A stretch of DNA of 64,000 nucleotides, taken from assembly GCA_015057035.1 (NCBI GenBank), contig SVFC01000001.1, forward strand, positions 124,001-188,000, read 5' to 3'. The stretch's first letter is position 1, and each line of letters opens with the position of its first letter. The position numbers and the translations under genes were made by a program. Positions 238-60,627 of the stretch are shown here, piece by piece. The notes beneath the pieces were generated by a model. It did no database searches, was not told where the DNA came from, and worked only from the letters and a program-made list of their open reading frames with translations. This DNA comes from Lachnospiraceae bacterium (lineage in GTDB: Bacteria > Bacillota > Clostridia > Lachnospirales > Lachnospiraceae).

Positions 238-245
238 GAAATTAT

Positions 246-278
246 AAAACGACTCAGGTTTGTCTTGAGTCGTTTTTG
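246..278 (+). terminator. Rho-independent terminator
   Basis: AAAACGACTCA (247-256 region) pairs with TGAGTCGTTTT (266-276) across a 9-nt loop, and a T-run follows. It closes the first gene. Confidence 0.85.
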
Positions 279-352
279 ATTGCGCAAAATCTAATTCTAT
301 GGTATTCTATACTAAGAGTTTATAAAAATTTTATAATTAAATGAGGACAAAT

Positions 353-1624: not shown

Positions 1625-1649
1625 ACCTAGGTTTAACTTCTATTTTTTC
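1617..1649 (+). terminator. Terminator overlapping the acyltransferase stop codon
   Basis: A perfect inverted repeat of GAAGTTAAACC (1617-1627) and GGTTTAACTTC (1630-1640) is followed by a T-rich run. The 5' arm includes the stop codon of the upstream gene. Confidence 0.75.
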
Positions 1650-1709
1650 TATTTACTTCTATGGAAAATGTGGTAAAATAGTTATGATATTACACGTTGG
1701 AGGATGAGT

Positions 1710-2711: not shown

Positions 2712-2724
2712 ACGGAGGATTAAC

Positions 2725-3495
2725 ATGGGACTTTTTAAAGATTTTAAAGAAGATTGGTCACAGGCAATTAATGAACTTGTACCAGGTGGCGAGGCTGCAA
2801 ACGACGACAACCTTGAAGTAGATACTTTAGGAGAAAATGTTGACGTTCAGTCAGAACTTTCTAAATTAGACGGTTTGTTAGAACAGGTGAAGGAAATTCC
2901 TGTAGCAGAACCTGCTGATAAGAAAGACAAGAAGAATGCAAAAGAAACAAAAGTTGAAAAGAAAGAAGAAGCACCAGTTGTTGAAGCAACAAGTGCACCA
3001 GTAGAGGAGAAAGTTATGGATACAACAGTTAGAGAAGAACGTCCAGTAGTTTTAGATGAAACATCAGTTATCACAGCAAGCACAACATTAACAGGTAACC
3101 TTGCATCAGCAGGTTCTTTTGATATTCAGGGAACTGTAAATGGTAACGTAACATGTAACGGTAAATTAGTTGTTACAGGTACAATTAACGGAAATAGCAC
3201 AGCAAGTGAATTTTTCGCTGACGTTGCTAAGGTTGAAGGTGAAGTTGTAAGTACAGGCACAGTTAAGATTGGTGCTGGTTCAGTTATTATTGGTAATATT
3301 TCCGCTACATCAGCAGTTATCGCTGGCGCAGTTAAGGGTGATATTGATGTTCAGGGACCTGTTGTTGTTGACACATCAGCAGTTATCATGGGTAACATCA
3401 AATCTCGTTCAGTACAGATTAACAATGGTGCTATCATTGAAGGTTTCTGTTCACAGTGCTATGCTGAAATTGATGTTCAGGGATTATTTGGCTAA
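2725..3495 (+). CDS. Bactofilin (polymer-forming cytoskeletal protein)
   Basis: The protein has 256 residues from ATG 2725, chosen because GGAGG lies at 2714-2718; an in-frame ATG at 2686 lies inside the previous gene. The N-terminal about 110 residues are charged and low in complexity (Lys, Glu, Ala, Val). From about residue 112 the protein repeats short Gly/Val/Ile segments such as GTVNGNVTCNGKLVVTGTINGN, the right-handed beta-helix pattern of bactofilins. Bactofilins self-assemble without nucleotide into filaments that organise envelope enzymes. The NodB-like neighbour upstream suggests an envelope role; pyrH lies 32 bp downstream. Confidence 0.85.
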   Translation: MGLFKDFKEDWSQAINELVPGGEAANDDNLEVDTLGENVDVQSELSKLDGLLEQVKEIPVAEPADKKDKKNAKETKVEKKEEAPVVEATSAPVEEKVMDTTVREERPVVLDETSVITASTTLTGNLASAGSFDIQGTVNGNVTCNGKLVVTGTINGNSTASEFFADVAKVEGEVVSTGTVKIGAGSVIIGNISATSAVIAGAVKGDIDVQGPVVVDTSAVIMGNIKSRSVQINNGAIIEGFCSQCYAEIDVQGLFG

Positions 3496-3527
3496 TATAG
3501 AAAATTGGATAAGAGAGGTAAATGCTT

Positions 3528-4223
3528 ATGAAACGTGTGTTGTTAAAACTCAGTGGTGAAGCTTTAGCAGGAGACAAGCATCAGGGCTTTGATGAACCAA
3601 CTGTTACAGTGGTTGCAAAGCAGGTAAAGAAATTGGTGGATAGTGGCGTTGAAGTCGGAATTGTTATCGGTGGTGGTAACTTCTGGCGTGGTCGTTCCAG
3701 TGAAACCATTGACAGAACCAAAGCAGACCAGATTGGTATGCTTGCTACTGTTATGAATTGTATTTACGTATCTGAAATCTTCCGTTCCGTAGGCATGAAA
3801 ACAGCAGTTATGACACCATTTGAATGTGGTTCTATGACAAAACTGTTTTCAAAAGACCGTGCAAATAAATATTTTGAACATGGAATGGTATGTTTCTTTG
3901 CTGGTGGCACAGGACATCCATACTTCTCAACAGATACAGCAACTGTTCTACGTGCAATTGAGATTGAAGCAGATGTGATTCTTCTGGCTAAGGCAATCGA
4001 TGGCGTATATGACAGCGATCCTAAGACCAATCCAAATGCTAAGAGATACGATGAAGTATCTATTCAGGAAGTACTTGATAAAAAACTTGCCGTAGTAGAT
4101 TTAACAGCAACTATTATGTGCATGGAAAATAAAATGCCAATGTATGTATTCGGATTAAATGAAGAAGACAGCATTGTAAAAGCAATGAGTGGAGAATTTA
4201 ACGGAACTAAGGTTACCGTATAA
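3528..4223 (+). CDS. pyrH: UMP kinase
   Basis: It phosphorylates UMP to UDP in pyrimidine nucleotide synthesis and is usually hexameric and controlled by GTP and UTP. The 231-residue protein has the amino-acid-kinase fold: KLSGEAL at the N terminus, the GGGNFWRG glycine-rich loop, and GGTGHPYFSTDTA in the nucleotide-binding part. ATG 3528 is preferred to ATG 3522 because the GAGAGG site at 3513-3518 is too close to the latter and the family typically begins MKRVLLKLSG. It is followed by frr 15 bp later, the conserved bacterial order. Confidence 0.96.
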   Translation: MKRVLLKLSGEALAGDKHQGFDEPTVTVVAKQVKKLVDSGVEVGIVIGGGNFWRGRSSETIDRTKADQIGMLATVMNCIYVSEIFRSVGMKTAVMTPFECGSMTKLFSKDRANKYFEHGMVCFFAGGTGHPYFSTDTATVLRAIEIEADVILLAKAIDGVYDSDPKTNPNAKRYDEVSIQEVLDKKLAVVDLTATIMCMENKMPMYVFGLNEEDSIVKAMSGEFNGTKVTV

Positions 4224-4238
4224 TCAGGAGGGAAAACT

Positions 4239-4793
4239 ATGGATGCAAGATTAGTATCTTATGAAGAGAAAATGACAAAAACAATGCATAACCTGGAAGA
4301 AGAATTCGGTGGAATTCGTGCAGGACGTGCAAACCCTCACGTATTAGACAAATTACGTGTGGACTATTACGGTACACCATCACCAATTCAGAGTGTGGCT
4401 AACGTTAGTGTTCCAGAACCAAGAATGATTCAGATTCAGCCTTGGGAAGCATCACTTGTTAAGGCAATTGAAAAAGCAATCCTTACATCTGACCTTGGCA
4501 TTAACCCAACAAACGATGGTAAAGTAATTCGTCTTATTTTTCCAGAATTAACAGAAGAAAGACGTAAAGAATTAGCAAAAGACGTTAAGAAGCATGGCGA
4601 AGATGCAAAAGTTGCGATTCGTAACATCAGACGTGATGCCATTGATCATATTAAGAAAATGGGCAAAGCAGATGGTATTTCAGAAGATGAAATCAAGGGC
4701 TTAGAAGACGATATGCAGAAATTAACAGACAAGTTTGTTGCGGATGTTGATAAAGCTGTTGATGTAAAAACAAAAGAAATTCTTACTGTATAG
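4239..4793 (+). CDS. frr: Ribosome recycling factor
   Basis: It splits post-termination ribosomes together with EF-G. At 184 residues it is the normal family length. The signature GGIRAGRANPHVLD (from about residue 24) and the conserved ERRKELAKDVKKHGEDAKVAIRN-type helix are present. GGAGG at 4227-4231 supports ATG 4239. A strong terminator follows, separating it from uppS, although this gene pair is often cotranscribed in Firmicutes. Confidence 0.97.
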   Translation: MDARLVSYEEKMTKTMHNLEEEFGGIRAGRANPHVLDKLRVDYYGTPSPIQSVANVSVPEPRMIQIQPWEASLVKAIEKAILTSDLGINPTNDGKVIRLIFPELTEERRKELAKDVKKHGEDAKVAIRNIRRDAIDHIKKMGKADGISEDEIKGLEDDMQKLTDKFVADVDKAVDVKTKEILTV

Positions 4794-4798
4794 CAATG

Positions 4799-4826
4799 GA
4801 GGGGTTGTTCCGACAACCCCTTTTTC
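4799..4826 (+). terminator. Terminator after frr
   Basis: GGGGTTGT (4801-4808) pairs with ACAACCCC (4813-4820), followed by TTTTT. Confidence 0.9.
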
Positions 4827-4869
4827 TGCATATTTTGACTTGGATTTATTAGGTTGAGGTGAATAATAG

Positions 4870-5580
4870 ATGATGAAGATACCTGAACATGTGGCAATCA
4901 TATTGGATGGCAATGGAAGATGGGCAAAAAGCAAAGGGCTTCCACGTAATGCGGGACATACTGCGGGAGCAAAGAATGTGGAAACAGTATGCCAGGCGGC
5001 AGATGAACTGGGAATAAAATATTTGACACTGTATGCTTTTTCTACTGAAAACTGGAATCGTCCAGATGCAGAAGTAGAAGCACTTATGAATCTCTTGGAG
5101 AGTTATCTGAAGAATTGTATTAAGACTGCGTCTAAAAATAATATGCGAGTACGTGTCATTGGTGAGATTGGCCGTTTGTCTGAGAAATTCCAGAACAGAA
5201 TCAAAGAGTTGGAAGAGGCGTCTAGCGTAAATACGGGACTTAATCTTACAATTGCAATCAATTACGGTAGTCGAGACGAAATGATTCGTGCCATGAAGAA
5301 TATGATGCAGGATGAAAAGGATGGAAAACTATCCATCGAAGATGTAACTGCAGAGCTTTTTTCGGGTTATTTGGATACAAAAGATCTTCCAGATCCAGAC
5401 CTTTTGATTCGTACCAGCGGAGAACAACGTCTGTCCAATTATCTGTTATGGCAGCTTGCTTATAGTGAATTTTACTTTACGGATGTTGCTTGGCCTGACT
5501 TCCATAAGAAAGAATTGGAACAGGCAGTAGAAGCATATAATAAACGTGACCGAAGATTTGGCGGCCTGAAGGAGGAATAA
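4870..5580 (+). CDS. uppS: Isoprenyl transferase (undecaprenyl diphosphate synthase)
   Basis: It condenses isopentenyl diphosphate onto farnesyl diphosphate to make the C55 carrier used for peptidoglycan and teichoic acid synthesis. The 236-residue cis-prenyltransferase shows HVAIILDGNGRWAK with the catalytic Asp, RNAGHTAGAKN, and the C-terminal DLLIRTSGEQRLSNYLLWQ and SEFYFTDVAWPDF motifs. ATG 4870 or 4873 may serve; GAGGTG at 4856-4861 fits 4870 better. It is followed one base later by cdsA. Confidence 0.96.
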   Translation: MMKIPEHVAIILDGNGRWAKSKGLPRNAGHTAGAKNVETVCQAADELGIKYLTLYAFSTENWNRPDAEVEALMNLLESYLKNCIKTASKNNMRVRVIGEIGRLSEKFQNRIKELEEASSVNTGLNLTIAINYGSRDEMIRAMKNMMQDEKDGKLSIEDVTAELFSGYLDTKDLPDPDLLIRTSGEQRLSNYLLWQLAYSEFYFTDVAWPDFHKKELEQAVEAYNKRDRRFGGLKEE

Positions 5581-5581
5581 A

Positions 5582-6391
5582 ATGTTTGTACCTCGTTTGT
5601 TAAGTGGAATCGTTATGGTGATTCTGGCGATTGTGTTAATCATATGTGGTGGAAACGTGTTATTGTTTTCGACACTTTTCATTTCTTTAATTGGAATGTT
5701 CGAACTATATCGTGTGCTTCAGATTGAGAAAACACCTCTTGCAATCTGTTCCTATTTGATTACGGCATTATTTTATTGTAATTTGGGATTCGGATGGATT
5801 GCAGACCCATTCCTGTTGATTATGGGGCTTTTGATTTTACTTATGTTTGTATATGTTTTAGCGTATCCAAAATATGAAGCAAAACATATTATGGCAGCAT
5901 TTTTCGGAATGTTTTATGTGGGTGTGATGCTGTCTTATGTATATCAGATTCGCACCCTGGAGAATGGTTTATATCTGGCATTCTTGATTTTCATTTGTTC
6001 CTGGGGGTGTGACACTTGTGCATATTGTGTAGGTATGTTAATTGGAAAACACAAGATGTCTCCAATTCTTAGTCCTAAGAAATCTGTAGAAGGTGCTGTA
6101 GGTGGAGTTCTTGGAACAGCACTTCTTACAGTAATCTATTGCCTGATTTTCGGAGGGCAGATGGAAATGGATTTGAATGGTATTATTATTCTGACAGTAA
6201 TTGCTGCTGTGGCAGGATTAATTTCAATGGTAGGAGACCTATGTGCTTCCGCAATTAAGCGTAATTATGATATCAAGGATTATGGAAAATTGATTCCTGG
6301 GCATGGCGGTATCATGGACAGATTTGACAGTATGATGATTACGGCGCCTATCATATACTATCTTGCTATACTTTTTATGCAGGTACAGTAA
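5582..6391 (+). CDS. cdsA: Phosphatidate cytidylyltransferase
   Basis: It makes CDP-diacylglycerol from phosphatidate and CTP, the precursor of all bacterial phospholipids. The 269-residue protein is almost entirely hydrophobic, with seven or eight predicted membrane segments, and ends with the family signature GDLCASAIKRNYDIKDYG...PGHGGIMDRFDS. GGAGG overlaps the end of uppS. It sits between uppS and dxr, the usual order. Confidence 0.95.
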   Translation: MFVPRLLSGIVMVILAIVLIICGGNVLLFSTLFISLIGMFELYRVLQIEKTPLAICSYLITALFYCNLGFGWIADPFLLIMGLLILLMFVYVLAYPKYEAKHIMAAFFGMFYVGVMLSYVYQIRTLENGLYLAFLIFICSWGCDTCAYCVGMLIGKHKMSPILSPKKSVEGAVGGVLGTALLTVIYCLIFGGQMEMDLNGIIILTVIAAVAGLISMVGDLCASAIKRNYDIKDYGKLIPGHGGIMDRFDSMMITAPIIYYLAILFMQVQ

Positions 6392-6419
6392 CGGGGATGC
6401 GCAATTTAAGGAGGTATAT

Positions 6420-7562
6420 ATGAAGAAAATCGCAGTTTTAGGTTCGACAGGTTCTATTGGAACACAGACACTAGATGTGGCAAGAGAACAGGGAGACCTT
6501 GAAATCGTTGCGTTATCCTGTGGTGGTAATATTCGTCTGATGGAAGAACAGATGCGTGAGTTTCGTCCAAAACTGGTAAGTGTTTGGGATGAGGCAGACG
6601 CAAAGGCACTTCGTGAAAACACCAAGGATTTAAATATCAAAATTATGGCTGGAATGGAGGGTCTCTTAGAGGTGGCTACAATTCCAGAGGCAGAGATTCT
6701 TGTAACAGCAATTGTAGGTATGCTTGGTATTCGACCAACCATCGCAGCAATTGAAGCAGGAAAAAATATAGCTTTAGCAAATAAAGAAACTCTTGTGACA
6801 GCCGGTCATATTATTATGCCACTGGCACGTAAACATAATGTGGCAATTTTGCCAGTGGACAGTGAACATAGTGCAATTTTCCAGTCTTTAAACGGAGAAA
6901 AAGGGAACCATATCAGTAAGATTCTTCTTACAGCTTCTGGTGGACCATTCCGTGGCAAAAAGCGTGAAGAATTGCTTAACATTCAGGTGGAAGATGCTTT
7001 GAAACATCCAAACTGGGCTATGGGAAGAAAAATCACCATTGATTCTTCTACATTGGTAAACAAGGGCTTGGAAGTAATGGAAGCGAAGTGGCTTTTTGAT
7101 GTGGATTTAGATCGTATTCAGGTTGTGGTACATCCACAGAGTGTGATTCATTCAGCAGTGGAGTTTGATGATGGAGCAGTGATTGCACAGCTAGGAACTC
7201 CAGATATGAGACTTCCAATCCAGTATGCGTTGTATTATCCAGAAAGAAGACCACTGTCTGGAAAACGTCTGGATTTATTCTCTCTGGCAAGTTTGACCTT
7301 TGAGGAACCAGATACAGAGACTTTCAAAGGATTAAAATTGGCATATGAAGCCATGACTCGTGGTGGTAATATACCGGTTGCATATAATGCGGCAAATGAG
7401 AAAGCAGTTAGTCTGTTCTTGAACCGTCAGATTCGATATCTTGAGATTACAGATATTATTGAGGAAACAATGAAACAGACTGGATTTATTGAAAATCCAA
7501 CATTAGAACAGATTTTAGAAACAGAACAGGAAGCTTATGAATTCATAAGTAGTAGGTGGTAA
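6420..7562 (+). CDS. dxr: 1-deoxy-D-xylulose-5-phosphate reductoisomerase
   Basis: It catalyses the first committed step of the MEP isoprenoid pathway, NADPH-dependent conversion of DXP to MEP. The 380-residue protein starts at ATG 6420 behind AAGGAGG (6408-6414); an in-frame ATG at 6363 overlaps cdsA and is not used. GSTGSIGTQTL binds NADPH, VDSEHSAIFQ carries the metal and substrate residues, and ASGGPFRG and the NKGLEVMEA block are present. The MEP genes ispG (8912) and ispH (52466) are also in the window. Confidence 0.96.
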   Translation: MKKIAVLGSTGSIGTQTLDVAREQGDLEIVALSCGGNIRLMEEQMREFRPKLVSVWDEADAKALRENTKDLNIKIMAGMEGLLEVATIPEAEILVTAIVGMLGIRPTIAAIEAGKNIALANKETLVTAGHIIMPLARKHNVAILPVDSEHSAIFQSLNGEKGNHISKILLTASGGPFRGKKREELLNIQVEDALKHPNWAMGRKITIDSSTLVNKGLEVMEAKWLFDVDLDRIQVVVHPQSVIHSAVEFDDGAVIAQLGTPDMRLPIQYALYYPERRPLSGKRLDLFSLASLTFEEPDTETFKGLKLAYEAMTRGGNIPVAYNAANEKAVSLFLNRQIRYLEITDIIEETMKQTGFIENPTLEQILETEQEAYEFISSRW

Positions 7563-7563
7563 T

Positions 7564-8880
7564 TTGAATATAGTAATTGCAATTTTAGTTTTTAGTTTAC
7601 TTATATTGTTCCATGAACTTGGACATTTTTCTTTAGCAAAATTCAATGGGATTCGTGTCAATGAATTTTCTCTTGGCCTTGGACCAACAATTTTTGGTTT
7701 TACAAAAGGAGAGACCAAATATTCTTTGAAACTTCTTCCATTTGGTGGCGCATGTATGATGGAAGGTGAAGATGAGGACTCTGATGACGACCGTGCTTTT
7801 AATAAAAAGGGCGTGTGGGCGAGAATCAGCGTTGTAGCTGCGGGACCTATCTTTAACTTTATTATGGCTGTTGTTTTTTCCATTGTAGTAATTTCTGCAA
7901 TTGGTATTGACCGTCCGGAAATCTATCAGGTTACAGACAATTCTCCAGCATCACATGCGGGGTTATTGCCGGGAGATATGCTTACGCAGTTCGATGGTAA
8001 AAATATACATTTTGGCCGTGAGATGTTTCTGATAGAGACATTATCTCCAATTTCTTCGGAAGAGGCCATTACGATTAAGTATATGAGAGAGGGCAAAGAG
8101 TATACAACAACTCTTACCCCTGTAAAGAAAGAGCAGTATCTGGTTGGATTTACTTATACCAGTACGGGAGAGGCTGCTGTAATCCAAGGAATAGTAGAAG
8201 GTGGAGCATTATCTCAGACAGAAGCGCTTGCTGGAGATGTTATTGTTGCTATCAATGGTACTGCAATTGACACTGCAGATTCTTTGGAAAAATACTTTAG
8301 CGATCATCCTACGACATCAAATCCAATTACACTGACTTTAAGTCGTGTGACAGGAGACAAGACGGAGCAGTTTGATGTAACAGTAACCCCACAGTATGCG
8401 GGCATTTATTACGATACGGGATTTGTTTATAACAAATACAATATTAGAGAGAAAACAAATTTCCTTGAAACTATTTATTTTAGTTTCTGTGAACTTGGTT
8501 ATTATGTAGATACTACATTCCAGAGTCTTAAAATGCTCCTGACAGGTGGAGCATCTGTGAATGATTTAAGTGGTCCAGTTGGAATTGTTCAGAATATGGG
8601 AGAATCTTTTGAAGAGGCAGAAGAAGAAGGTGGATTCCTGATTGGCATACTTACAATTATGAATTGGGCAATTATGTTGTCTGCAAACCTTGGTGTAATG
8701 AACCTCCTTCCTATTCCTGCTCTGGATGGTGGAAGATTAGTATTCCTTATCATTGAGGCAATTCGTGGAAAAGCAATGGATCCAAACAAAGAAGGTATGG
8801 TTCACATGATTGGTATCATTTTATTATTCCTTCTTATGTTCTTTGTAATGTTTAACGATATTCGTAAGTTGTTTATTTAG
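7564..8880 (+). CDS. rseP: RseP-type site-2 zinc metalloprotease
   Basis: It cleaves membrane-embedded substrates such as anti-sigma factors or signal peptide remnants. The 438-residue protein begins at TTG 7564, with a GGTGG-like site just upstream and only 1 bp after dxr. Zinc-binding HELGH is at residues 17-21 and the LDG motif at 387-389. Two PDZ-like domains lie between them, at about residues 118-200 and 205-285, as in E. coli RseP; many Firmicutes members carry only one. Terminal membrane segments are obvious. Confidence 0.93.
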   Translation: MNIVIAILVFSLLILFHELGHFSLAKFNGIRVNEFSLGLGPTIFGFTKGETKYSLKLLPFGGACMMEGEDEDSDDDRAFNKKGVWARISVVAAGPIFNFIMAVVFSIVVISAIGIDRPEIYQVTDNSPASHAGLLPGDMLTQFDGKNIHFGREMFLIETLSPISSEEAITIKYMREGKEYTTTLTPVKKEQYLVGFTYTSTGEAAVIQGIVEGGALSQTEALAGDVIVAINGTAIDTADSLEKYFSDHPTTSNPITLTLSRVTGDKTEQFDVTVTPQYAGIYYDTGFVYNKYNIREKTNFLETIYFSFCELGYYVDTTFQSLKMLLTGGASVNDLSGPVGIVQNMGESFEEAEEEGGFLIGILTIMNWAIMLSANLGVMNLLPIPALDGGRLVFLIIEAIRGKAMDPNKEGMVHMIGIILLFLLMFFVMFNDIRKLFI

Positions 8881-8911
8881 TGGCGCAAGCCTATACTTTG
8901 GGAGGTGCAAA

Positions 8912-9967
8912 ATGGATAAGAGATTAACTAAGGAAGTTCGCATTGGAAATCGTGTCATCGGTGGAGGAAATCCAATTCTGATTCAGTCCATGACCAACAC
9001 GAAAACAGAGGATGTAGCAGCAACAGTGGCTCAGATTCAGAAATTGACTAAGGCAGGCTGTGATATTATCCGCTGTGCAGTTCCTACTATGGAAGCGGCA
9101 AAGGCTTTGGCTGAGATCAAAAAGCAGATTGAGATTCCATTGGTTGCAGATATTCATTTTGATTATAAATTAGCTATCGCAGCTATGGAAAATGGTGCGG
9201 ACAAAATCCGTATTAACCCAGGAAATATTGGAAGTGAAGATCGTGTAAAAGCCGTTGTAGATGTGGCAAAAGAACGTAATATTCCAATTCGTGTTGGCGT
9301 AAATAGTGGTTCTTTGGAGAAACATCTGGTGGAAAAATACCATGGCGTTACAGCATATGGTATTGTGGAAAGTGCTTTGGATAAAGTAAAAATCATTGAA
9401 GATATGGGATATGACAACCTGGTTGTAAGTATTAAATCTTCTGATGTTTTAATGTGTGTAAAAACCCACGAATTGATTTCTACACAGACCAACCATCCAC
9501 TTCATGTAGGTATTACAGAAGCAGGTACGATTATTAGTGGTAATATTAAGTCTTCCATTGGACTTGGCTTAATCTTAAGTCAGGGAATTGGTGATACCAT
9601 TCGTGTATCCTTAACAGGAGATCCAGTAGAAGAAATTAAATCAGCAAAACTGATTTTAAGAACCTTGGGACTTCGTCAGGGTGGTATTGAAGTTGTTTCC
9701 TGTCCAACCTGTGGCAGAACCCAGATCGATTTGATTGGACTTGCAAATCAGGTGGAAACCATGGTAGCAGAATATCCACTGGATATTAAAGTTGCTGTTA
9801 TGGGATGCGTGGTAAATGGCCCAGGAGAAGCCAAAGAAGCAGACCTTGGTGTTGCTGGTGGTATCGGCGAAGGTCTTATTATTAAAAAGGGTGAAGTGTA
9901 TAAGAAAGTTCCAGAAGCAGAGCTTTTGGATGCCTTAAGATACGAACTGGAAAATTGGAGTAAGTAA
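8912..9967 (+). CDS. ispG: 4-hydroxy-3-methylbut-2-enyl diphosphate synthase
   Basis: It is the penultimate MEP pathway enzyme, a 4Fe-4S protein that reduces MEcPP to HMBPP. The 351-residue length fits the short bacterial form. The N-terminal TIM barrel includes IQSMTNTKTEDV and RINPGNIG; the C-terminal iron-sulfur part has SCPTCGRT and MGCVVNGPGEA. TGGGAGG at about 8899-8905 supports ATG 8912. The stop codon touches the polC start, suggesting translational coupling. Confidence 0.96.
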   Translation: MDKRLTKEVRIGNRVIGGGNPILIQSMTNTKTEDVAATVAQIQKLTKAGCDIIRCAVPTMEAAKALAEIKKQIEIPLVADIHFDYKLAIAAMENGADKIRINPGNIGSEDRVKAVVDVAKERNIPIRVGVNSGSLEKHLVEKYHGVTAYGIVESALDKVKIIEDMGYDNLVVSIKSSDVLMCVKTHELISTQTNHPLHVGITEAGTIISGNIKSSIGLGLILSQGIGDTIRVSLTGDPVEEIKSAKLILRTLGLRQGGIEVVSCPTCGRTQIDLIGLANQVETMVAEYPLDIKVAVMGCVVNGPGEAKEADLGVAGGIGEGLIIKKGEVYKKVPEAELLDALRYELENWSK

Positions 9968-12900
9968 ATGTCAAAGACATTCCTAGAAGTATTTCCTACC
10001 TTAAAGGTAGAGCCAGGCTTAAAAAGCCTTCTTGAAAAAGCAGAAGTAACAAAAGTAAGTGCGAATCATGACAGAAGTCATGTTCGCATTTATTTGCATG
10101 CAGAAAGACTGATAGATAAGAATAAAATCTGGTATTTGGAAAGAATCATCAAGGACCAGTTGTTTGAAGGTAAGGATATTACTGTAAAAATTATAGAAAA
10201 GTACAGTTTATCAGAACAGTATAATGCTCAGGCGCTTTTTCAGGTATATAAAGACAGCATTTTAGAAGAGTTAAGTGAATACAGCGTATTAGAAGCCAAT
10301 CTGTTGCGTACAGCTAGTATGGAATTTGATGGGCCTCGCCTAACCTTAACCATGGATAACACCATTATTGCCCAAACCAAAGGCAATGAGATTGTGGAGT
10401 TTTTGGAAAAGGTGGTATGTGAGCGCTGCGGTTTAGATCTGATTATTAAAGTAGAGTATCGTGAACCAAAGGAAAGCAAATACCGTAAGAATTCGGAAGA
10501 ACAAATTCGTCAGGAAGTGCGAGCAATTGTGTCACGTACCAGTATTGGTAAAGGGGCAGAGGAAGAGCCACAGGAAGATGGCCTACTTATTGCGGACAAG
10601 AAGACTGCCAAGACTTCTGGTGAGACCGCCAAGGAGGGGACAGTTGCGCCATCGCAAGCACAACCTAAAACCGCATCATCTGGAGATTCCTTTAAGGCCA
10701 AGAATAACGGATTTGAGAAAAAAGGTGAATTTCGCAAGAAATACGAACCTGGTAGCAAGAAATCCGATAACCCAGACGTGCTATATGGCCGTGATTTTGA
10801 GGACGAGCCATTAGATATCGAAAAGATAGACGCTCCAATTGGAGAGGTTACCCTTCGTGGTAAGGTTGTTTCTTTGGAAACCCGTGAGATTCGAAATGAG
10901 AAGACCATTGTTATTTTTTCTATGACGGATTTTACAGATACGATTGTTTTAAAACTATTTGCTAAGAATGAAGATGTTCCAGAACTGGAAAAAAATATCG
11001 GTCCTGGCGCATTTATCAAGGTAAAAGGAATTGCCATCATTGATAAATATGATAATGAACTTACCATTGGTTCGATTGTTGGCATCAAGAAGATTCCAGA
11101 TTTTACTACTACACGAATGGACGTTAGTCCGGAAAAACGAGTAGAGCTTCATTGCCATACCAAGATGAGTGATATGGATGGTGTTTCGGATGTTAAGGAT
11201 ATCATTAAGCGTGCCAAGAAATGGGGTCATAAAGCCATTGCCATTACAGATCACGGTGATGTACAGGCTTTCCCAGATGCAAACCATGCGGTAAGCGGAC
11301 CGGATGATATCAAGATTATCTATGGTGTGGAAGCCTATATTGTAGATGACTTAAAAGGAATTGTTACAGACTCCCGTGGACAGTCTCTAGATGATTCTTA
11401 TGTAGTATTTGATATTGAAACCACAGGCTTTAGTCCTGCGGTAAATAAGATTATTGAGATTGGAGCAGTAAAAGTGGAAGGCGGAAAAATCGTAGACCGT
11501 TTTTCTACTTTTGTAAACCCACAGGTTCCAATTCCATTCCGAATTGAGGAATTAACCCATATCAGTGATGACATGGTGGTGGATGCTCCAACCATTGATG
11601 TGGTATTACCACAGTTCTTAGACTTCTGCGAAGGATGCATTATGGTAGCTCACAATGCAGAATTTGATATGAGTTTTATCAAGAAAAATGCCTTGGATTT
11701 AGGAAAAGAGTTTGCGCCAACTGTGATTGATACCGTGGCTATGGCTCGCTTCCTGTTACCAACATTAAATCGTTTTAAATTGGATACCGTAGCAAAGGCA
11801 GTAGGTGTAGCTTTAAATAACCACCATCGTGCTGTGGATGATGCTGCTTGTACTGCAGAAATCTTTGTGAAGTTTATTCCAATGTTAAAAGAGCGTGGCA
11901 TTGTGGATTTGAATCAGGTCAATGAAGTAGGTACATCTTCTGTAGATAATATTATGAAGATGCCAACTTATCATGCCATTATTTTGGCAACCTGTGACCA
12001 GGGAAGAACGAACCTGTACAACTTGGTTTCTCTTTCCCATGTTACATATTTCCACAGAAGACCTCGTATTCCAAAATCAGAGTTTCTCAAATATCGTGAT
12101 GGACTTCTTCTTGGGTCTGCCTGTGAAGCAGGAGAACTGTATCGTGCCATTTTAAATGGACGACCAGAAGAGGAAATTGCGAGAATTGTGGATTTTTATG
12201 ATTATCTAGAGATTCAGCCTTTGGGGAATAATGCATTTATGCTTCGTGATGAAGATTCTCCTGTGGAAACAGAAGAAGATATTATGGAGATTAACCGCAA
12301 GATTGTGAAACTGGGAGAAGACTTTAACAAGCTGGTTGTTGCCACCTGTGACGTACATTTCCTAGACCCAGAGGATGAAGTCTACCGTCGTATTATTATG
12401 GCGGGAAAGGGATTTGATGACGCAGACCAGCAGGCGCCATTGTATCTTCGTACCACAGAAGAAATGTTAGCAGAGTTTGCGTATCTGGGCAGCGCAAAAG
12501 CAGAAGAGGTGGTTATTACCAACACCAATAAGATTGCGGATATGTGTGAGCGAATTAGCCCCGTACGTCCAGACAAATGCGCTCCAGTTATTGAGAACTC
12601 CGATCAGATGCTTCGTGACATTTGTTATAACAAAGCATACAAAATGTACGGTAATCCACTTCCAAAAATTGTAGAAGCCCGTTTGGAAAGAGAGCTTAAC
12701 TCTATTATTTCCAACGGATATGCCGTAATGTATATCATCGCGCAGAAACTGGTGTGGAAATCCAATGAAGATGGATATCTGGTAGGTTCTCGAGGTTCCG
12801 TAGGTAGTTCCTTTGTAGCGACTATGGCGGGTATTACAGAGGTAAATCCACTTCAGGCCCATTATCTTTGCGAAGAATGTAAGTATGTGGATTTTGATTC

Positions 12901-18915: not shown

Positions 18916-18931
18916 AGTGCATTTTTGACAA

Positions 18932-18960
18932 TTGACGAATATACGGAAAGTTGCTATCAT
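18932..18960 (+). promoter_or_regulatory. Promoter of the galactanase gene
   Basis: TTGACG (18932-18937) and TATCAT (18955-18960) are 17 nt apart, 46 bp before the start codon. A second TTGACA lies 7 bp upstream without a matching -10. Confidence 0.65.
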
Positions 18961-19005
18961 ATAAATACGGTGAGCAACCGATTGCGCAAATTGGAGGAAA
19001 AGGTA

Positions 19006-20976
19006 ATGAAAAAAATTAAGACATTGTGTGTAATAGCTGCGTTAGCTATTGGCCTCATGACAGGGATAACAGGATGCGATAATCCTTCGCCGGTTAAGGT
19101 AGAGCCAATCCCATCAGATTCTCTGTATGTAGAGAAGGTAGAGAATATGCCTAAGGATTTTATTCTTGGAATGGATGCTTCGCAAGTGCTTTCATTGGAG
19201 GAATCTGGTGTTAAATATTATGATTATGATGGTAACGAAGCAGATGTTTTTGAAACACTTGCTAAGAGCGGTATCAATTATATTCGTGTTAGAGTATGGG
19301 TTGATCCATATGACGCTGACGGAAATGGATATGGTGGCGGTAACTGTGATATTAACACAGCTATTGCGATTGGTGAGCGTGCAACAAAATATGGCATGAA
19401 GTTGTTGGTTAATTTCCATTATTCTGACTTTTGGGCAGATCCTGCTAAACAGATGGTTCCAAAGGCATGGGCAGGTATGGATATTGATACAAAAGCCAAT
19501 GCGGTATATGAATATACTCTTGACTGTTTGAATAAATTGAAAAAAGCAAAAGTTGACGTCGGAATGGTGCAGGTAGGTAATGAAACCAATGGCGCGATTT
19601 GTGGTGAAAAGATTTGGATGAATATATACAAGATTATGGCAGCTGGTTCAAAAGCTACTAGAGAAGTTTTCCCAGATGCATTGGTTGCTGTTCATTTTGC
19701 TAATCCAGAAAAGGTTACAAATTATGCAGACTACGCAAAGAAATTGAATTACTATAATCTTGATTATGATGTATTTGCATCTTCATATTATCCATATTGG
19801 CATGGCACACTTGATAACCTGACCACTGTATTAAATAATGTGGCAGATACATATGGAAAGAAGGTTATGGTTGCTGAAACATCTTATGCCTATACTACAG
19901 AAGATACCGACTTTAGTGGTAACACAATCTCTGGCGGTGGCGGAATTGTTGCAGATTATCCTATGACAATTCAGGGTCAGGCAAATCATATTCGTAACGT
20001 TGTTGATACTATGGTAAATGACGTGCATAATGGTATTGGTGTATTCTATTGGGAAGGAACCTGGATTTCGGTAGGTACAAATTCTTGGGAAGAGAATTCT
20101 GTGTTATGGGAAAAATATGGTTCTGGATGGGCTTCATCTTATGCTGCAGAGTATGATCCTGATGATGCTGGAAAATACTATGGTGGTTGTGCTTGTGATA
20201 ACCAGGCATTGTTTGATGCACAGGGGAAACCACTTGAATCATTAAAGGTATTTAGTTTGCTTGGCACAGGTAATAAAGTTGAAGTGAAAGCAGATGCTAT
20301 TGAGGCCGTGAACGTACAGTTTGACTTGAATGGTACAATTGTTCTTCCAGATAAAGTAAATGCTGTTATGTCGGATAACTCTAAACAGGAAGTTGCTGTT
20401 ACATGGAAAGATGTTGATTACGATAAAATGTACAATGGTGGTGTTGCAAAATATGATATCATCGGTGAAGCTGGTGGCATGGAAGCACATTGCTATGTTT
20501 CTATGATTGAATTTAACTTCTTGAAAGATTATAGTTTTGAAGAAGAAAGTGATGCATGGGTAGTAAAAGCTGCTGGAGTTATGGATGAACTTATGGTAGA
20601 AGATAAAGCAACTGACTCTTTGACTGGTACCAAGCATTATCACTTCTGGAGTGCGAATTCCAATACAGTAAACTTTGACTTAGAGCAGGAGGTAAAAGAT
20701 CTTCCAGCTGGAACATATAAGTATTCAATTGCTATTATGGGTGGCGATTGTGGAGAAACCAATATCTATGCTTATGTTAAAGTAAATGGTGAAATTGTTG
20801 CGAAAGATTCTTTAGGAATCAATGGATACAACAATTGGGAATCAAGTTTAATTGAAAATATCGTTTACAACGGAACAGATACAATAGTAGTAGGTATTCA
20901 TGTGGAATGTAGTGGCGAAGGCGCTGGTGCATGGGGTAAAATTGATGATGCTTTACTTAATTCTGTTGCAGAATAG
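19006..20976 (+). CDS. Lipoprotein GH53 arabinogalactan endo-beta-1,4-galactanase
   Basis: It cuts the beta-1,4-galactan of pectin side chains at the cell surface. The 656-residue protein starts at ATG 19006 behind GGAGG (18993-18997); an in-frame start at 18925 lies in the promoter. The lipobox GITGC puts the lipidated cysteine at residue 24. The GH53 barrel (about 50-425) has FILGMDASQV, GNETNG with the acid/base Glu193 and MVAETSY with the nucleophile Glu291. A bacterial Ig-like segment follows (about 432-500), then a C-terminal beta-sandwich (about 505-655) resembling a carbohydrate-binding module, possibly CBM61. It is monocistronic; no transporter or beta-galactosidase is adjacent. Confidence 0.9.
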   Translation: MKKIKTLCVIAALAIGLMTGITGCDNPSPVKVEPIPSDSLYVEKVENMPKDFILGMDASQVLSLEESGVKYYDYDGNEADVFETLAKSGINYIRVRVWVDPYDADGNGYGGGNCDINTAIAIGERATKYGMKLLVNFHYSDFWADPAKQMVPKAWAGMDIDTKANAVYEYTLDCLNKLKKAKVDVGMVQVGNETNGAICGEKIWMNIYKIMAAGSKATREVFPDALVAVHFANPEKVTNYADYAKKLNYYNLDYDVFASSYYPYWHGTLDNLTTVLNNVADTYGKKVMVAETSYAYTTEDTDFSGNTISGGGGIVADYPMTIQGQANHIRNVVDTMVNDVHNGIGVFYWEGTWISVGTNSWEENSVLWEKYGSGWASSYAAEYDPDDAGKYYGGCACDNQALFDAQGKPLESLKVFSLLGTGNKVEVKADAIEAVNVQFDLNGTIVLPDKVNAVMSDNSKQEVAVTWKDVDYDKMYNGGVAKYDIIGEAGGMEAHCYVSMIEFNFLKDYSFEEESDAWVVKAAGVMDELMVEDKATDSLTGTKHYHFWSANSNTVNFDLEQEVKDLPAGTYKYSIAIMGGDCGETNIYAYVKVNGEIVAKDSLGINGYNNWESSLIENIVYNGTDTIVVGIHVECSGEGAGAWGKIDDALLNSVAE

Positions 20977-55292: not shown

Positions 55293-55322
55293 AAAAGCCG
55301 AGGTCTTACGACCTCGGCTTTT
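55293..55322. terminator. Bidirectional-looking terminator after cheR
   Basis: AAAAGCCGAGGTC and GACCTCGGCTTTT pair perfectly across TTAC. Confidence 0.92.
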
Positions 55323-55354: not shown

Positions 55355-58300
55355 ATGAGAAAAGGATTATTAAAAAGAATTTTGGCAGGATTTATGGTAT
55401 TTGCGTTGACATTTATGTCAGTGGATGCCGGATGTATCACTGCTATGGCGGCGGATTTACAGGAAAAGAATGTTGAGAGTGTCGTAGATGCATCAACTAC
55501 ACCAGAAAAAATCCATGGTGCAACAGGATATATTGATATTGGGCATGTTGCTGGACGAGTAGAAATAACAAATAATATTTCGGGCGGAATAGGTTTAAAT
55601 CAGAGTATAGATGTTCCTGAACGATATAATTCTGCAGAATTAGGATACGTTACATCTGTGAAAAATCAGGGCTCTTGGGGGACGTGTTGGGCGTTTGCTG
55701 CTTGTGCTTCAATGGAATCATATGCCTTAAGAAAAGGATATGAGACAGATAAAACAGCGATTGATTTTTCTGAATATGCGATTGCGTATCTTACATATAA
55801 AGATAATATCTTAATAGATCAAACAGGTGACTATACATTTGCAAAAGCAGAAGATATGGCAACGTTATTTGCATCAGGTGGAAATGATGAATATGCATTT
55901 AGGCTTTTAACTCAAGGAATTGGAATATATAATGAAGGCACAGATACTTATTATGCAGATAGTTTGTCTTCTGGAACAATAACGGAATATGTTCCAAAGG
56001 AAGAAAATGTAGATTATGTTCTTACTGGACAGAAATTCATTAATATGGCAGATGCTAATCAGGTTAAAGCAGCAATTATGGAAAATGGTGCGTTAACTAC
56101 CAGCTATTTTTCTGATGATGCGTATACTTCAGATGATGGAATTTATAATTATAACTATGAATATAGCGCTACAAATCATGCAGTTACTTTGGTTGGATGG
56201 GATGACACAATTAGTAAAGATTTGTTTACAATGCCAAATGGTTCCAAACCAAATAATAATGGCGCTTGGCTTGTGAAGAACAGTTGGGGAACTGGTACAA
56301 ATTATGATGGATATATCTGGATTTCTTATGAAGATTTTGGCATAATGTCAAGTGATGCTGTTGTGTATGAAGTCACTCCAAAAGATGAATTAGACAATAT
56401 CTACCAGCATGATGGTGCAACTCCATTTGCTGGATATGGACAAGGATATCTTTTTGCGACAGTATTTGATATTGAGGGAGAAACTGACCAGTTATTAGAA
56501 GCGATTTCATTTGCGCTTTGCTCAACAGATGCTAATTATACAATTTCTGTTTTAAGAACTACAGAAGAGAAGCAATTTTATGATGGCGAATTACTTGCTA
56601 CGCTTACAGGGTCTACTTCTTATGAAGGTTATTATACTGTAAATTTGGATACACCGGTTGAAGTTGCTCCTGGCGATGAGATTACAATCATTATTAGATT
56701 TGATGATACAGAGTTTATTATCATGGGGCTGAACGATTGGTCAATGATGGGTGAGTATGAAGGTGAAACACTGGTTTATTCTTACTCAACGGTATATTCA
56801 TCCAGTCAAGCGGGAGAAAATTATTTTGGATATGGTACTACAGATAATCCATATTTTACAGATATGGTAGGTGATAGTAGCGAGAGATGTCATAATCTTT
56901 GTATAAAAGCATTTACAAGTGATGTGAAAAACGATACGACTAAGGTTCCAGAGAATGTGGATTATAATATAAATGATTACACAGAAGTTGTATTATCATG
57001 GGATGAGATTGACTATGCAACCGGTTACGAAGTATTGTATTGTTTGAGTGCGGATTTAGATAACCCTACAATTGTACAGGTGGATGAGAACTCATTCACG
57101 TTTACAGGTGAATTAGGGAAGAAATATTATTTCAGGGTTAAAGCTATTTATGGAGAAGATAGTTCTGAATATAGCGAGTGGCATTATGCTACGGTTGCAA
57201 TTCCTAATATGCCAGGATTTTCTGTAGATGACAGGTTCTATGGCAAGATGATTCTCAGTTGGACACCGCTTACTGACCTTGCAACTGGATATGAGATTAT
57301 CTATGAGGTAGAAGATTATACCGGTGAAATAGAACCTATTATTATTGATGATGCAAGTGTATCTTCTTATGTATTAGATACAACTGCTTATCCAGAATAC
57401 TCTGCGATAACATTTAAAGTAAAGACAATATATGATGCTTTTAGCACAGAATATCTCACTGTAAATGATGAAGGATATGTTGTGGCCGAAACACTGGTGG
57501 CAGACATAAAATGGTATATTCTTAAGGAAGATACATTCATGAATCTTATGGTTAAGGTTAAAACGGATGCGCAAGAAGAATTGTGGTTTGCTCTTATGGC
57601 ACCGAATGAAACTGGTGATGGTAGTGGAATGTGTCTTGGAGAGAATAATTCTTTGTTATGGGAGACAGGGGTAGAGGTATGGTTTGAACATTTGCCATAT
57701 AACCAAGTTAGCTGGTTGTACGTTCTTGGAGAAGGTGCAATGACAGGATTCCAGGAAACACCATTCCTTGTTGGTGGAGAATTTGTTGCTCCAATTCTTG
57801 AGATTGTCGAAGATGTTAAGTTAGCAGATGGTGTAACAACTACAACGCTCGAAGCAGTAATTACTAATGAGATGCCGAACTTTGATTATCGTTATCAGTG
57901 GTATGTTTCAGATAGTGCAGATGGAGATGCAATTGCAATCGAAGGTGCAACAAATAGTACATATGATGCTACTGTTTCTTCAACAGAAACAAAATATTAT
58001 TATTGTGAAGTAAGTTGTGAGTATGGTACAGTCACAACCTATTCTACCAAGAATGAAACTGGTGGTAGAACTAGTGTGAAAGGATATCTTTCAGATGCAG
58101 TTATTTCAATTACAGATGATATTGAAGATCAGACCTATACGGGACAAGATATTACGCCAGAAATTGTTGTTCAAGCGGACGGAATAGATTTAACCTTAGA
58201 TATAGATTACAATGTAAAATATGTAGATAATCAGGATGTTGGTACAGCAACGATTAAGGTTATTTTTATTGGAGAATATGAAGCGTTTGGTACTAAAGAA

Positions 58301-59275
58301 GTTTATTTTGAAATTGTTCCAATTGAAATTTCTACAGAAGATTTAGAAATAGAGGCTGTGGAAGACATTGTTTATACAGGTGATGAGATTTGGCCAGAAG
58401 TTATAATTCAGTGTGAAAGTTTAGGCCTGACGTCAGAAGATGGTTCTTTATTATACGAAATCGATTTTGCAGAGGGTGTTGACCATACCAATGCAGGAGT
58501 AGTAGAATTTACGGTTATTTTAGTTGGCAATTATACAGGAATAATTACTAGTACTTTTGAAATAAGTAAAAAGTCATCGAATGAATTATCTATAGGTAGT
58601 ATTCAGACCAATATGCCATATACTGGAGAACAAATCATTCCAGCATTTTCAATTTGGCATGAGGATGATTTTAATAAGATTTTGGTAAAAGATGTTGACT
58701 ATGTTGTTAATATAGCGGAAGATTCAGAGTCTGATGGTATCGAGGTGGGTACTGTAACATTGTGTATTTCATTTATTGGCAACTATGAAGGTGATGATAT
58801 CTATAAGGAATTTGAGATTATCCCAGCGAACATTACATCAAAAGATGTGGATATTAATGATGAAACGGGATATATCAGTAAAATAACAGTAGGAACAACG
58901 GTTGGAGCGTTCCTTGAACTTCTTGCTGAAAGCCAGTCGGTAAAAGTGTTTAAAGGTACTGAGGTTGTTGCTAATGATGTATTACTTGGCACCGGTATGA
59001 AGGTTTCTGTTATGAATGGAACGGAAGCAGTAAAAACTTATGTTGTTATTGTTACTGGCGATACCAATGGTGATGGTAAGATTAGTATTACTGACATGAT
59101 CGCAGTGAAGGCACATTTGTTAAAGAAAGAGCTTTTGACCGGTGCAAGTGAAAAAGCCGCAGACGTTGCTGGTTCTACAGATGGTGGAGATGGTAAAGTT
59201 AGTATTACAGACTTTATTAAAGTGAAAGCGCACTTATTGAAAAAAGAAACAGTAGTTGGTGTTGTGGTTAAATAG
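55355..59275 (+). CDS. Secreted papain-like (C1A) cysteine protease with C-terminal dockerin
   Basis: The 1306-residue protein has a signal peptide (about 1-33) and a C1A protease domain (about 85-340). The catalytic residues are Cys111 (QGSWGTCWAF, oxyanion Gln105), His275 (TNHAVTLVGWD) and Asn309 (VKNSWGTG). A beta-rich lectin-like region follows (about 350-535), then FN3-like modules (about 545-710) and further Ig-like parts. Three repeats opening YTG-x-x-I-x-P lie at about 928-992, 1006-1072 and 1088-1158. A type I-like dockerin closes the protein (about 1234-1306), with two GKIS/VSITD-x-I-x-VKAHLLKKE segments. GGGGG precedes ATG. The next gene encodes a cohesin-like anchor, the probable docking partner. 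Confidence 0.9.
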   Translation: MRKGLLKRILAGFMVFALTFMSVDAGCITAMAADLQEKNVESVVDASTTPEKIHGATGYIDIGHVAGRVEITNNISGGIGLNQSIDVPERYNSAELGYVTSVKNQGSWGTCWAFAACASMESYALRKGYETDKTAIDFSEYAIAYLTYKDNILIDQTGDYTFAKAEDMATLFASGGNDEYAFRLLTQGIGIYNEGTDTYYADSLSSGTITEYVPKEENVDYVLTGQKFINMADANQVKAAIMENGALTTSYFSDDAYTSDDGIYNYNYEYSATNHAVTLVGWDDTISKDLFTMPNGSKPNNNGAWLVKNSWGTGTNYDGYIWISYEDFGIMSSDAVVYEVTPKDELDNIYQHDGATPFAGYGQGYLFATVFDIEGETDQLLEAISFALCSTDANYTISVLRTTEEKQFYDGELLATLTGSTSYEGYYTVNLDTPVEVAPGDEITIIIRFDDTEFIIMGLNDWSMMGEYEGETLVYSYSTVYSSSQAGENYFGYGTTDNPYFTDMVGDSSERCHNLCIKAFTSDVKNDTTKVPENVDYNINDYTEVVLSWDEIDYATGYEVLYCLSADLDNPTIVQVDENSFTFTGELGKKYYFRVKAIYGEDSSEYSEWHYATVAIPNMPGFSVDDRFYGKMILSWTPLTDLATGYEIIYEVEDYTGEIEPIIIDDASVSSYVLDTTAYPEYSAITFKVKTIYDAFSTEYLTVNDEGYVVAETLVADIKWYILKEDTFMNLMVKVKTDAQEELWFALMAPNETGDGSGMCLGENNSLLWETGVEVWFEHLPYNQVSWLYVLGEGAMTGFQETPFLVGGEFVAPILEIVEDVKLADGVTTTTLEAVITNEMPNFDYRYQWYVSDSADGDAIAIEGATNSTYDATVSSTETKYYYCEVSCEYGTVTTYSTKNETGGRTSVKGYLSDAVISITDDIEDQTYTGQDITPEIVVQADGIDLTLDIDYNVKYVDNQDVGTATIKVIFIGEYEAFGTKEVYFEIVPIEISTEDLEIEAVEDIVYTGDEIWPEVIIQCESLGLTSEDGSLLYEIDFAEGVDHTNAGVVEFTVILVGNYTGIITSTFEISKKSSNELSIGSIQTNMPYTGEQIIPAFSIWHEDDFNKILVKDVDYVVNIAEDSESDGIEVGTVTLCISFIGNYEGDDIYKEFEIIPANITSKDVDINDETGYISKITVGTTVGAFLELLAESQSVKVFKGTEVVANDVLLGTGMKVSVMNGTEAVKTYVVIVTGDTNGDGKISITDMIAVKAHLLKKELLTGASEKAADVAGSTDGGDGKVSITDFIKVKAHLLKKETVVGVVVK

Positions 59276-59289
59276 AAAGGAAGAATAAA

Positions 59290-60627
59290 ATGAAGAAAAT
59301 ACTAAAATATCTTGTTATGGCATGCTTGAGCATTGTAATGCTCATTGGAATGAGCGATGCTACTTTGGCTGCAAATGCCACACTTACAGCTTCCTCATCT
59401 ACAGTTCGTCCAGGTGATACAATTACATTAAGTTTTAAGGTTCCTCATCAGGGAAGTTATGGTGTAACAGGAACCCTGGAATATGATTCGAGCGTTGTTA
59501 CACTTTCTGGAGAACCAACCATTAATAAAAACCTTACTGGTTGGGCAGCTGAAAGAAATGGAAATGAATTGGTTATTTATGATAACAATTATGCAAATCC
59601 ATTAAAGGGTACAGAAACAGTACTTACATTAAAGTTCAAAGTAAATAGTGGTGCTACAGAAGGATCAAAAATTAATATTTCCATTAAAAATATTGTTTCT
59701 TCGGATGGTAGTGCTGATACAAACATCGGTACGGCTACATATTCCACCACTGTTGCACGTCCACTTTCCACCAACGCAAATCTTGCATCTTTATCAGTTG
59801 CAGGCGTGACACTTAGCCCAGAGTTTAAGCCAGGAACTACTTCATATGATCTTGGCGAAGTAGAATATAGCGTGAAGTCTTTGAGCATTACCTGTGCTAC
59901 AGAAGATAAAAATGCAAAATATACAATCAAAAACAACTCACTTAGCGTTGGTAAGAATACAGTTTCTATTATTGTTACAGCTGAAAATGGAACAAGTAAG
60001 ACGTACAAACTGAATGTAACCAGAAAACAGGATCCAAACTATGTAGCAAGTTCGAACGCAAACCTGAAATCTATGAAGGTGAGCCTTGGCATGCTTTCAC
60101 CACACTTTAGTGCAGATGTAACAGATTATATTGTTTATTTGCCATTTGAATGTGTTGGATCAAGCTTTACAGCCTCTGGAACAGAAGCCGATTCTAAGGC
60201 ACAGGGTGTAGTTGATGGAACCATTGACAAACTGGTAGAAGGCAAGAATCAGACAGTAGTTGTATGTAAAGCAGAAGATGGATCCGAGAAGACATATGCT
60301 ATTACTGTTTATGTAATGCCAAAATATGATGGAACAATTCCTAACATTGGAGGCTCTGGAGAAGTTGTAGATCCAGGAACAAACCCTGGAAATACAGAAG
60401 ACCCTGTTGATCCAAGCGAGTCAGAAGAGCCATCAGATACTTCATCTGAAGAAGAATCAGAAAAACCATCTGAGACACCATCAGAGAAGCCATCAGAAAA
60501 ACCAGGAACACCATCTGTCGACAGTGATACCGATGACAATGGATTATTAACCATCTTTGTTATTATTGTTGTGGTTGTATTAGTTGGTGCATTGATTTAC
60601 GTATTATTCTTTTCTAAGAAAAGATAA
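59290..60627 (+). CDS. Membrane-anchored cohesin-domain protein with cadherin-like repeats
   Basis: The 445-residue protein has a signal peptide (about 1-28) and a cohesin-like beta-sandwich (about 29-155) with STVRPGDTITLSFKVP, GVTGTLEYDSSVVTLSG and ETVLTLKFKV. Two cadherin-like beta-sandwich repeats follow (about 160-250 and 256-346), each opening NANLxSLxV and ending KTYxLNV or KTYAITV. A Pro/Ser/Glu linker (about 355-412) and a C-terminal membrane segment with KKR tail (about 419-445) finish it. No LPXTG sorting motif is present. AAAGGAAG precedes ATG, 14 bp after the dockerin protease, so it is probably the surface receptor for that enzyme. Confidence 0.85.
   Translation: MKKILKYLVMACLSIVMLIGMSDATLAANATLTASSSTVRPGDTITLSFKVPHQGSYGVTGTLEYDSSVVTLSGEPTINKNLTGWAAERNGNELVIYDNNYANPLKGTETVLTLKFKVNSGATEGSKINISIKNIVSSDGSADTNIGTATYSTTVARPLSTNANLASLSVAGVTLSPEFKPGTTSYDLGEVEYSVKSLSITCATEDKNAKYTIKNNSLSVGKNTVSIIVTAENGTSKTYKLNVTRKQDPNYVASSNANLKSMKVSLGMLSPHFSADVTDYIVYLPFECVGSSFTASGTEADSKAQGVVDGTIDKLVEGKNQTVVVCKAEDGSEKTYAITVYVMPKYDGTIPNIGGSGEVVDPGTNPGNTEDPVDPSESEEPSDTSSEEESEKPSETPSEKPSEKPGTPSVDSDTDDNGLLTIFVIIVVVVLVGALIYVLFFSKKR

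Follow-up and report, generated by a model that had tools for sequence, protein, structure and literature searches.

A candidate two-gene docking cassette in a Lachnospiraceae bacterium: a dockerin-bearing cysteine protease beside a cohesin-bearing membrane anchor

Within a 64,000-nucleotide stretch of DNA from a Lachnospiraceae gut bacterium (assembly GCA_015057035.1, contig SVFC01000001.1, positions 124,001 to 188,000; hereafter the window), two adjacent genes encode a secreted C1A cysteine protease that ends in a dockerin and a membrane protein that carries a single cohesin. We interpret this locus as a two-gene docking cassette in which a single secreted cysteine protease is kept at the membrane face by a receptor dedicated to it, a reading to which we assign a probability of about 0.77. 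In the proposed mechanism, the protease would be exported from the cell and its C-terminal dockerin would bind, in a calcium-dependent manner, the single cohesin at the outer end of the neighbor-encoded membrane protein, whose short stalk, built from a pair of cadherin-like domains plus a Ser/Glu/Pro-rich linker, would hold the protease at the cell surface. The receptor would serve one cargo through a private dockerin class that does not mix with a second pair, composed of a glucosaminidase and a transmembrane (TM) cohesin protein, and tethering would keep the protease cell-associated for the processing of surface proteins or for peptide feeding near the cell. Binding, its calcium dependence and one-to-one specificity are predictions drawn from sequence comparison. 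An earlier note on this DNA had suggested a surface-tethered complex with a dedicated receptor, and that proposal gains from the significant cohesin and dockerin matches, the presence of just two dockerins in the genome, the recurrent linkage of the two genes, their co-retention in one genome, G179, and a receptor-specific recognition motif (G, C and L numbers are our own handles for genomes, contigs and loci).

Both open reading frames lie where the earlier note had placed them (Table 1). The protease carries the complete C1A residue set, with Q105 as the oxyanion Gln alongside the triad of C111, H275 and N309 that had been described as intact, and the catalytic residues are kept in all six dockerin-bearing orthologs, the window protein included. 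The C1A domain is predicted to be an active protease and may act on surface proteins or peptides. Its nearest solved structure is Cwp84 (PDB 4ci7, 1.4e-29 by phmmer over residues 87-452), in an alignment that spans the C1A domain and part of the Lectin_like domain. The C-terminal dockerin, also part of the original description, scores 39.6 bits against PF00404, for which the Pfam cut-off is 22.9; it is of type I, with two F-hand calcium motifs, internal symmetry and two near-identical recognition helices (SITDMIAVKAHLLKK / SITDFIKVKAHLLKK), and its profile finds 1ohz_B as the best PDB match (1.9e-9). Signal peptides and TM segments of both proteins were called by hydropathy only. The C1A and lectin-like region is itself matched in 57 of 60 genomes of the genus (e.g. 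G128:C286, G129:C6), many of these matches falling in open frames of approximately 570-630 amino acids (aa).

In the second protein, the postulated cohesin was recovered with PF00963 at 24.2 bits when searched alone, against a cut-off of 24.1, and at 28.2 bits in the genome search, and its profile matches a PDB cohesin at 5.8e-6. In the solved complexes 4uyp, 5nrk and 5nrm, each of the two profiles picks out the chains of its own kind, cohesin or dockerin. The fold was examined on a model of the ortholog L162, which adopts the cohesin beta-sandwich; among the matches listed against solved structures, 46 of 50 are titled cohesin; the remaining four comprise 4fl4 and 3kcp, both labelled as cohesin regions elsewhere in the analysis, 2o4e, presumably a cohesin-type module, and 9ifr, which is not a cohesin. 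The stretch KQDPNYVA, which joins the two cadherin-like domains, is invariant in 8/8 aligned anchors. The absence of a sorting motif also stands, as no LPxTG-like match was found by regular expression. A TM segment is present by hydropathy, and a ScaE-like sortase-anchored scaffoldin was set aside for want of such a signal in the window anchor. A terminator-like hairpin upstream of the protease gene suggests that the protease and anchor genes may form their own transcription unit; such sites number 5 in the 64-kb window vs a mean of 3.9 in shuffled sequence.

Table 1. Features of the protease-anchor locus, in window coordinates
Feature	Residues	Position	Strand	Remark
Terminator-like hairpin, 13 pairs		55293..55322	+	Pattern match only; between cheR and protease gene
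Secreted C1A cysteine protease with C-terminal dockerin, 1306 aa		55355..59275	+	Cargo
Peptidase_C1 domain	88-326	55616..56332	+	C111, H275, N309
Lectin_like domain PF18560	349-521	56399..56917	+	
fn3-like domain	532-610	56948..57184	+	
Type I dockerin	1235-1295	59057..59239	+	
Cohesin-bearing membrane anchor, 445 aa		59290..60627	+	Receptor
Cohesin domain	32-154	59383..59751	+	
Two cadherin-like beta-sandwich domains	~166-345	59785..60324	+	
Hydrophobic membrane-spanning segment, then short basic tail	~413-435	60526..60594	+	Hydropathy

The source assembly (G000, 84.7% complete) contains two dockerins and two confident cohesins, the latter on C27 and, for the window, on C5, each in a single-cohesin protein; a third cohesin match has an E-value of 0.024. 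As the two dockerins and the two related cohesins lie adjacent to one another, the cell has two complete pairs. The search for further dockerins in the genome thus returned one more, borne by a glucosaminidase with its own TM-cohesin partner. This second, or canonical, pair (L102:2329-9393, G000:C27) consists of a dockerin protein with SH3, cadherin-like and SagB-like glucosaminidase domains and, starting 11 bp after its gene, an anchor with signal peptide, cohesin, cadherin-like domain, TM segment and long acidic tail; clpC, assigned by Pfam on the relative L136, and radA, assigned by reading, follow. The glucosaminidase scores 57.3 bits against NF052642, below the whole-protein cut-off of 425, and matches PDB 6fxo, 6fxp and 6u0o at 1.5e-12 to 3.7e-12. 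The window-type and canonical cohesin groups are related (hhalign 97.7%), and the canonical group matches solved cohesins at 9.7e-7, but Pfam alone detects only the window cohesin and misses the other, so that genomes of this kind may hide cohesins. Readings of the system as a cellulosome, amylosome or mucinolysome were rejected because this 84.7% complete genome yielded no multi-cohesin scaffoldin and no set of dockerin hydrolases; its only dockerin proteins are the C1A protease and the glucosaminidase-like protein, and they do not amount to the several plant-cell-wall hydrolases of a cellulosome.

Linkage of the two genes is recurrent. In G000, G130 and G126, the protease-anchor pair is flanked by cheR and an RNase H-like gene; the genus loci read for such neighborhoods were among the best-scoring rather than a random draw. 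A survey at the RNase H-like gene covered 30 genus loci (30 of the 55 genomes with a hit): three carry the pair, in 23 the genes cheR, RNase H-like and rnfC are contiguous with no pair, one has cheR on the opposite side and three could not be classified. The 23 empty vs 3 occupied sites indicate that both genes come and go together. A wider contig scan recovered seven relatives, five of them with record titles that name deer, goat or sheep gut samples. A strong window-type match occurs in at least 8 of 391 genomes of the class, a lower bound since at most four candidates were scored per genome, and because seven of the eight lie outside the family of the window, horizontal spread appears likely from these comparisons.

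While the receptor persists, the cargo varies. Sixteen window-type anchors were found, and for 13 of them the gene immediately before encodes a protein with a C-terminal dockerin: a C1A protease in five (the window, L134, L135, L164, L165), a protein with BspA-type leucine-rich repeats (LRR) in two (L166; L167 by likeness), a transglutaminase-like protein with LRR in two (L263, L265), an uncharacterised 304-aa protein in two (L266; L267 by likeness), and a GLUG/Big protein (L264) and a subtilase (L269) in one each. L167 and L267 were classed by sharing length and dockerin type with L166 and L266. In G179, the anchor follows a NUDIX-HD gene and the C1A-dockerin ortholog is retained on another contig, while the window-type anchor of G427 lies at a contig edge. 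The earlier view of a proteolytic complex is supported for the window, where the protease is the predicted cargo, but in the receptor family as a whole the protease is only one of several cargoes. Similarly, the notion of a dedicated minimal pair is supported, yet the pair is no lone oddity, given a second pair in the same genome and recurrent pairs in the family.

Across 120 genomes of the family (Lachnospiraceae, judging by the named relatives), PF00963 was found in 45 and PF00404 in 43. Of 94 dockerin hits, 23 (22 genomes) are followed on their own strand by a cohesin hit no more than 1 kb away, two of them within one open reading frame, vs a rough uniform expectation of 0.025. In the genus (60 genomes), 43 of 75 dockerin hits, from 40 genomes, lie just upstream of an anchor-like, membrane-anchored cohesin-type hit, and G000, G126 and G130 each have two such pairs. 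A glucosaminidase is carried by 38 of 52 pairs (L162, identical with L135, and L217, identical with L166, were excluded as duplicates from this set and from the 53-pair set used below). The gene clpC follows the glucosaminidase pair in 15/15 cases in the genus and in 5 of the 21 elsewhere that had enough flanking sequence. Acidic tails were seen in glucosaminidase-type anchors such as those of L102, L137, L144, L149 and L153, and many of the 14 other anchors end in a short basic tail. The pattern [FYVI][IL]D[LFMI], for example EFIDL, occurs in the last 12 residues of 18/38 glucosaminidase-pair anchors and in 0/14 of the others; such an end might serve to bind a partner in the cytoplasm.

The question of whether the anchor is dedicated turns on the recognition residues. 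An alternative in which both dockerins and both cohesins cross-bind, with the anchor a general receptor, has in its favor that both dockerins match the type I model, that the two cohesin groups are related as described above, and that a single cohesin of R. albus has been described as a proposed anchor of isolated dockerin enzymes (PMC6118326). We nevertheless consider such a shared pool unlikely. The recognition positions read IT and KA in window-type dockerins vs NR in three of four canonical dockerins of the same genomes, and [IV]TD stands at the start of the recognition helix in both repeats of 14/14 partner dockerins (G184, whose unlinked dockerin lacks the motif, and G427, at its contig edge, excluded) vs 0/45 dockerins of other pairs, although the motif was chosen after the sequences had been inspected, which counts against the dedicated-receptor interpretation. 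These positions correspond, we presume, to binding-relevant residues of the C. thermocellum dockerin; the title of one fold match, 2ccl, names an S45A/T46A mutant. Two genomes have larger dockerin complements, G182 (16 dockerins) and G183 (69). Among the 23 dockerin domains examined there, the two anchor neighbors are the sole members of this class, with [IV]TD twice, and an N-K-D type accounts for 20 of the remaining 21 (10 of 16 dockerin loci were fetched from G182 and 11 of 69 from G183, 20 of these 21 giving a domain).

Several results weigh against a dedicated docking pair. In the co-fold of dockerin and cohesin (predicted template modelling score 0.56), the dockerin block was poorly modelled (predicted local distance difference test 43-60) and no usable interface was obtained, so that the pairing receives no interface support. 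In the window dockerin, calcium loop 2 is lengthened by 5 residues, AGSTD by alignment (window 59168-59182), that 5/5 aligned orthologs lack; this insertion is either a real variant or an assembly error, and might compromise one of the binding faces. Few genomes of the genus (3/60) have a window-type pair, and G184 combines a distant window-type anchor with a sole, unlinked dockerin on a lysozyme-like protein without [IV]TD. In G137 (L141) and G157 (L139), the glucosaminidase lies beside an anchor that keeps its cohesin but itself has no dockerin, and a scan of the G137 genome shows no dockerin at all. Within six anchors, the cohesin (58% identity) is not the best conserved domain, the first cadherin-like domain reaching 67%. 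Distances, by contrast, speak for the dedicated pair, with a caution. Both pair types occur together in four genomes, where the mean distance among window-type dockerins is 0.21 vs 0.54-0.71 to the canonical dockerins of the same genome, and that among window-type cohesins 0.36 vs 0.81-0.91, but canonical pairs are themselves diverse there (means of 0.51 for dockerins and 0.78 for cohesins), such that simple paralogy explains some of the separation. Over 53 pairs, distances between dockerins track those between cohesins (Mantel 0.64, 0/2000 permutations, shared ancestry included), but with glucosaminidase distance removed, co-variation over 34 canonical pairs is weak (partial r 0.18, 55/2000); the corresponding value for the cadherin-like domain of the anchor is -0.06 (1393/2000) once both glucosaminidase and cohesin are taken out.

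Some of these same observations would fit an evolutionary leftover, in which the cohesin is an adhesion-type beta sandwich and the dockerin a calcium-stabilised tail with no mutual binding: the window cohesin scores near the Pfam cut-off, calcium loop 2 is interrupted, and G137 and G157 keep the anchor cohesin beside a dockerin-less glucosaminidase. We regard this as improbable, more so than a shared pool, for no other region of the six orthologous proteases is as well conserved as the dockerin (mean pairwise identity 75%, vs 54% for C1A, 38% for Lectin_like and 24-39% for other measured stretches), both genes were retained after their separation in G179, and a common dockerin motif recurs on unrelated cargoes beside one anchor family. 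It is very improbable that the locus belongs to a cellulosome- or amylosome-like system that looks incomplete because the assembly lacks its scaffoldin, even though dockerins of type I occur in cellulosomal proteins and two anchor relatives belong to the 16- and 69-dockerin genomes, since the source genome has two dockerins and two confident single-cohesin proteins and G130, at 97% completeness, likewise has just 2 dockerins, which makes it unlikely that the missing part hides an array.

Beyond the dedicated docking cassette of the window, we tentatively propose, at somewhat under even odds, that cohesin-dockerin pairs in many non-cellulolytic gut Clostridia may serve as private, swappable, one-cargo membrane ports. 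One lineage, marked by KQDPNYVA and [IV]TD, would trade C1A protease, subtilase, transglutaminase-like, LRR and other cargo, and in a second a TM protein would hold a SagB-like glucosaminidase. This TM protein often has a long acidic tail, which would be cytoplasmic, and in the genus of the window its gene stands directly before clpC; the cell would thereby gain an inside-out handle on wall cutting analogous to SagB-SpdC.

Additional loci depart from these arrangements. In L095 (G102, 3-9999), four consecutive genes encode a pair of large dockerin proteins, one protein with both cohesin and dockerin, and one with a cohesin and a TM segment, an arrangement that would be a miniature scaffold chain. 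At L140:5576-7498 (G169), a canonical-type anchor has no adjoining dockerin gene, and the short open reading frame before it presumably encodes a MinE-like protein. Dockerin proteins of approximately 400 aa occur away from anchor hits (L221:517-1695, and frames of roughly 390-470 aa in G156, G170, G163, G128, G129, G174 and G124). The N-terminal part of L221 appears cohesin-like by eye, but the match is weak (25% and 7% hhalign probability), and L221 is a tentative candidate at most for an adaptor scaffoldin. Elsewhere in the window, a secreted protein at 18925-20976, which we take to be a GH53 galactanase, is absent from the dockerin matches of the genome.

The pairs of the genus, whose cargoes include proteases and wall hydrolases, can be sorted into distinct motif classes; these classes predict a cognate-only binding matrix and are natural candidates for orthogonal pairs. 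Among known proteins, the window protease resembles Cwp84 of C. difficile (4ci7) in the succession of C1A domain and lectin-like region, over an alignment covering part of the protein; Cwp84, we assume, associates with the cell wall through other repeats and has no dockerin. Single TM-cohesins and dockerin peptidases are already in the literature, and a single cohesin as general anchor has been proposed (PMC11557425, PMC3573020, PMC12997984, PMC6118326); recurrent gene-by-gene pairing, a private motif class and cargo swapping on one receptor lineage were not found in the passages of open-licence literature searched, an absence that carries little weight. The canonical pair, but not the window pair, has a likeness in SagB-SpdC of S. 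aureus, a SagB-related glucosaminidase with a dedicated membrane partner, although SpdC belongs to the integral membrane proteins of the CAAX protease family, with no cohesin or dockerin named in that text (PMC12272431). The Limousia mucinolysome shares dockerin-bearing peptidases outside cellulose degradation, but has multi-cohesin scaffoldins, many dockerin-bearing carbohydrate-active enzymes and LPxTG anchoring (PMC12997984). R. flavefaciens has both a single-cohesin surface anchor, ScaE, and a putative dockerin cysteine peptidase, RflaF_05439; unlike the window anchor, ScaE is sortase-linked and shared by ScaB and CttA, and unlike the window C1A protease, RflaF_05439 is an X-dockerin NlpC/P60 peptidase in an organism with >220 dockerin open reading frames (PMC3573020). 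Also similar to the window anchor are the proteins of H. luporum, C. cibarium and Lachnoclostridium sp. MSJ-17, in which one cohesin and a C-terminal TM helix are proposed to hold dockerin proteins at the cell (PMC11557425); there the partners are described as unclear or could number up to 39 dockerin proteins, whereas the predicted partner of the window anchor is the product of the adjacent gene, recurrently so, and with a dockerin motif of its own.

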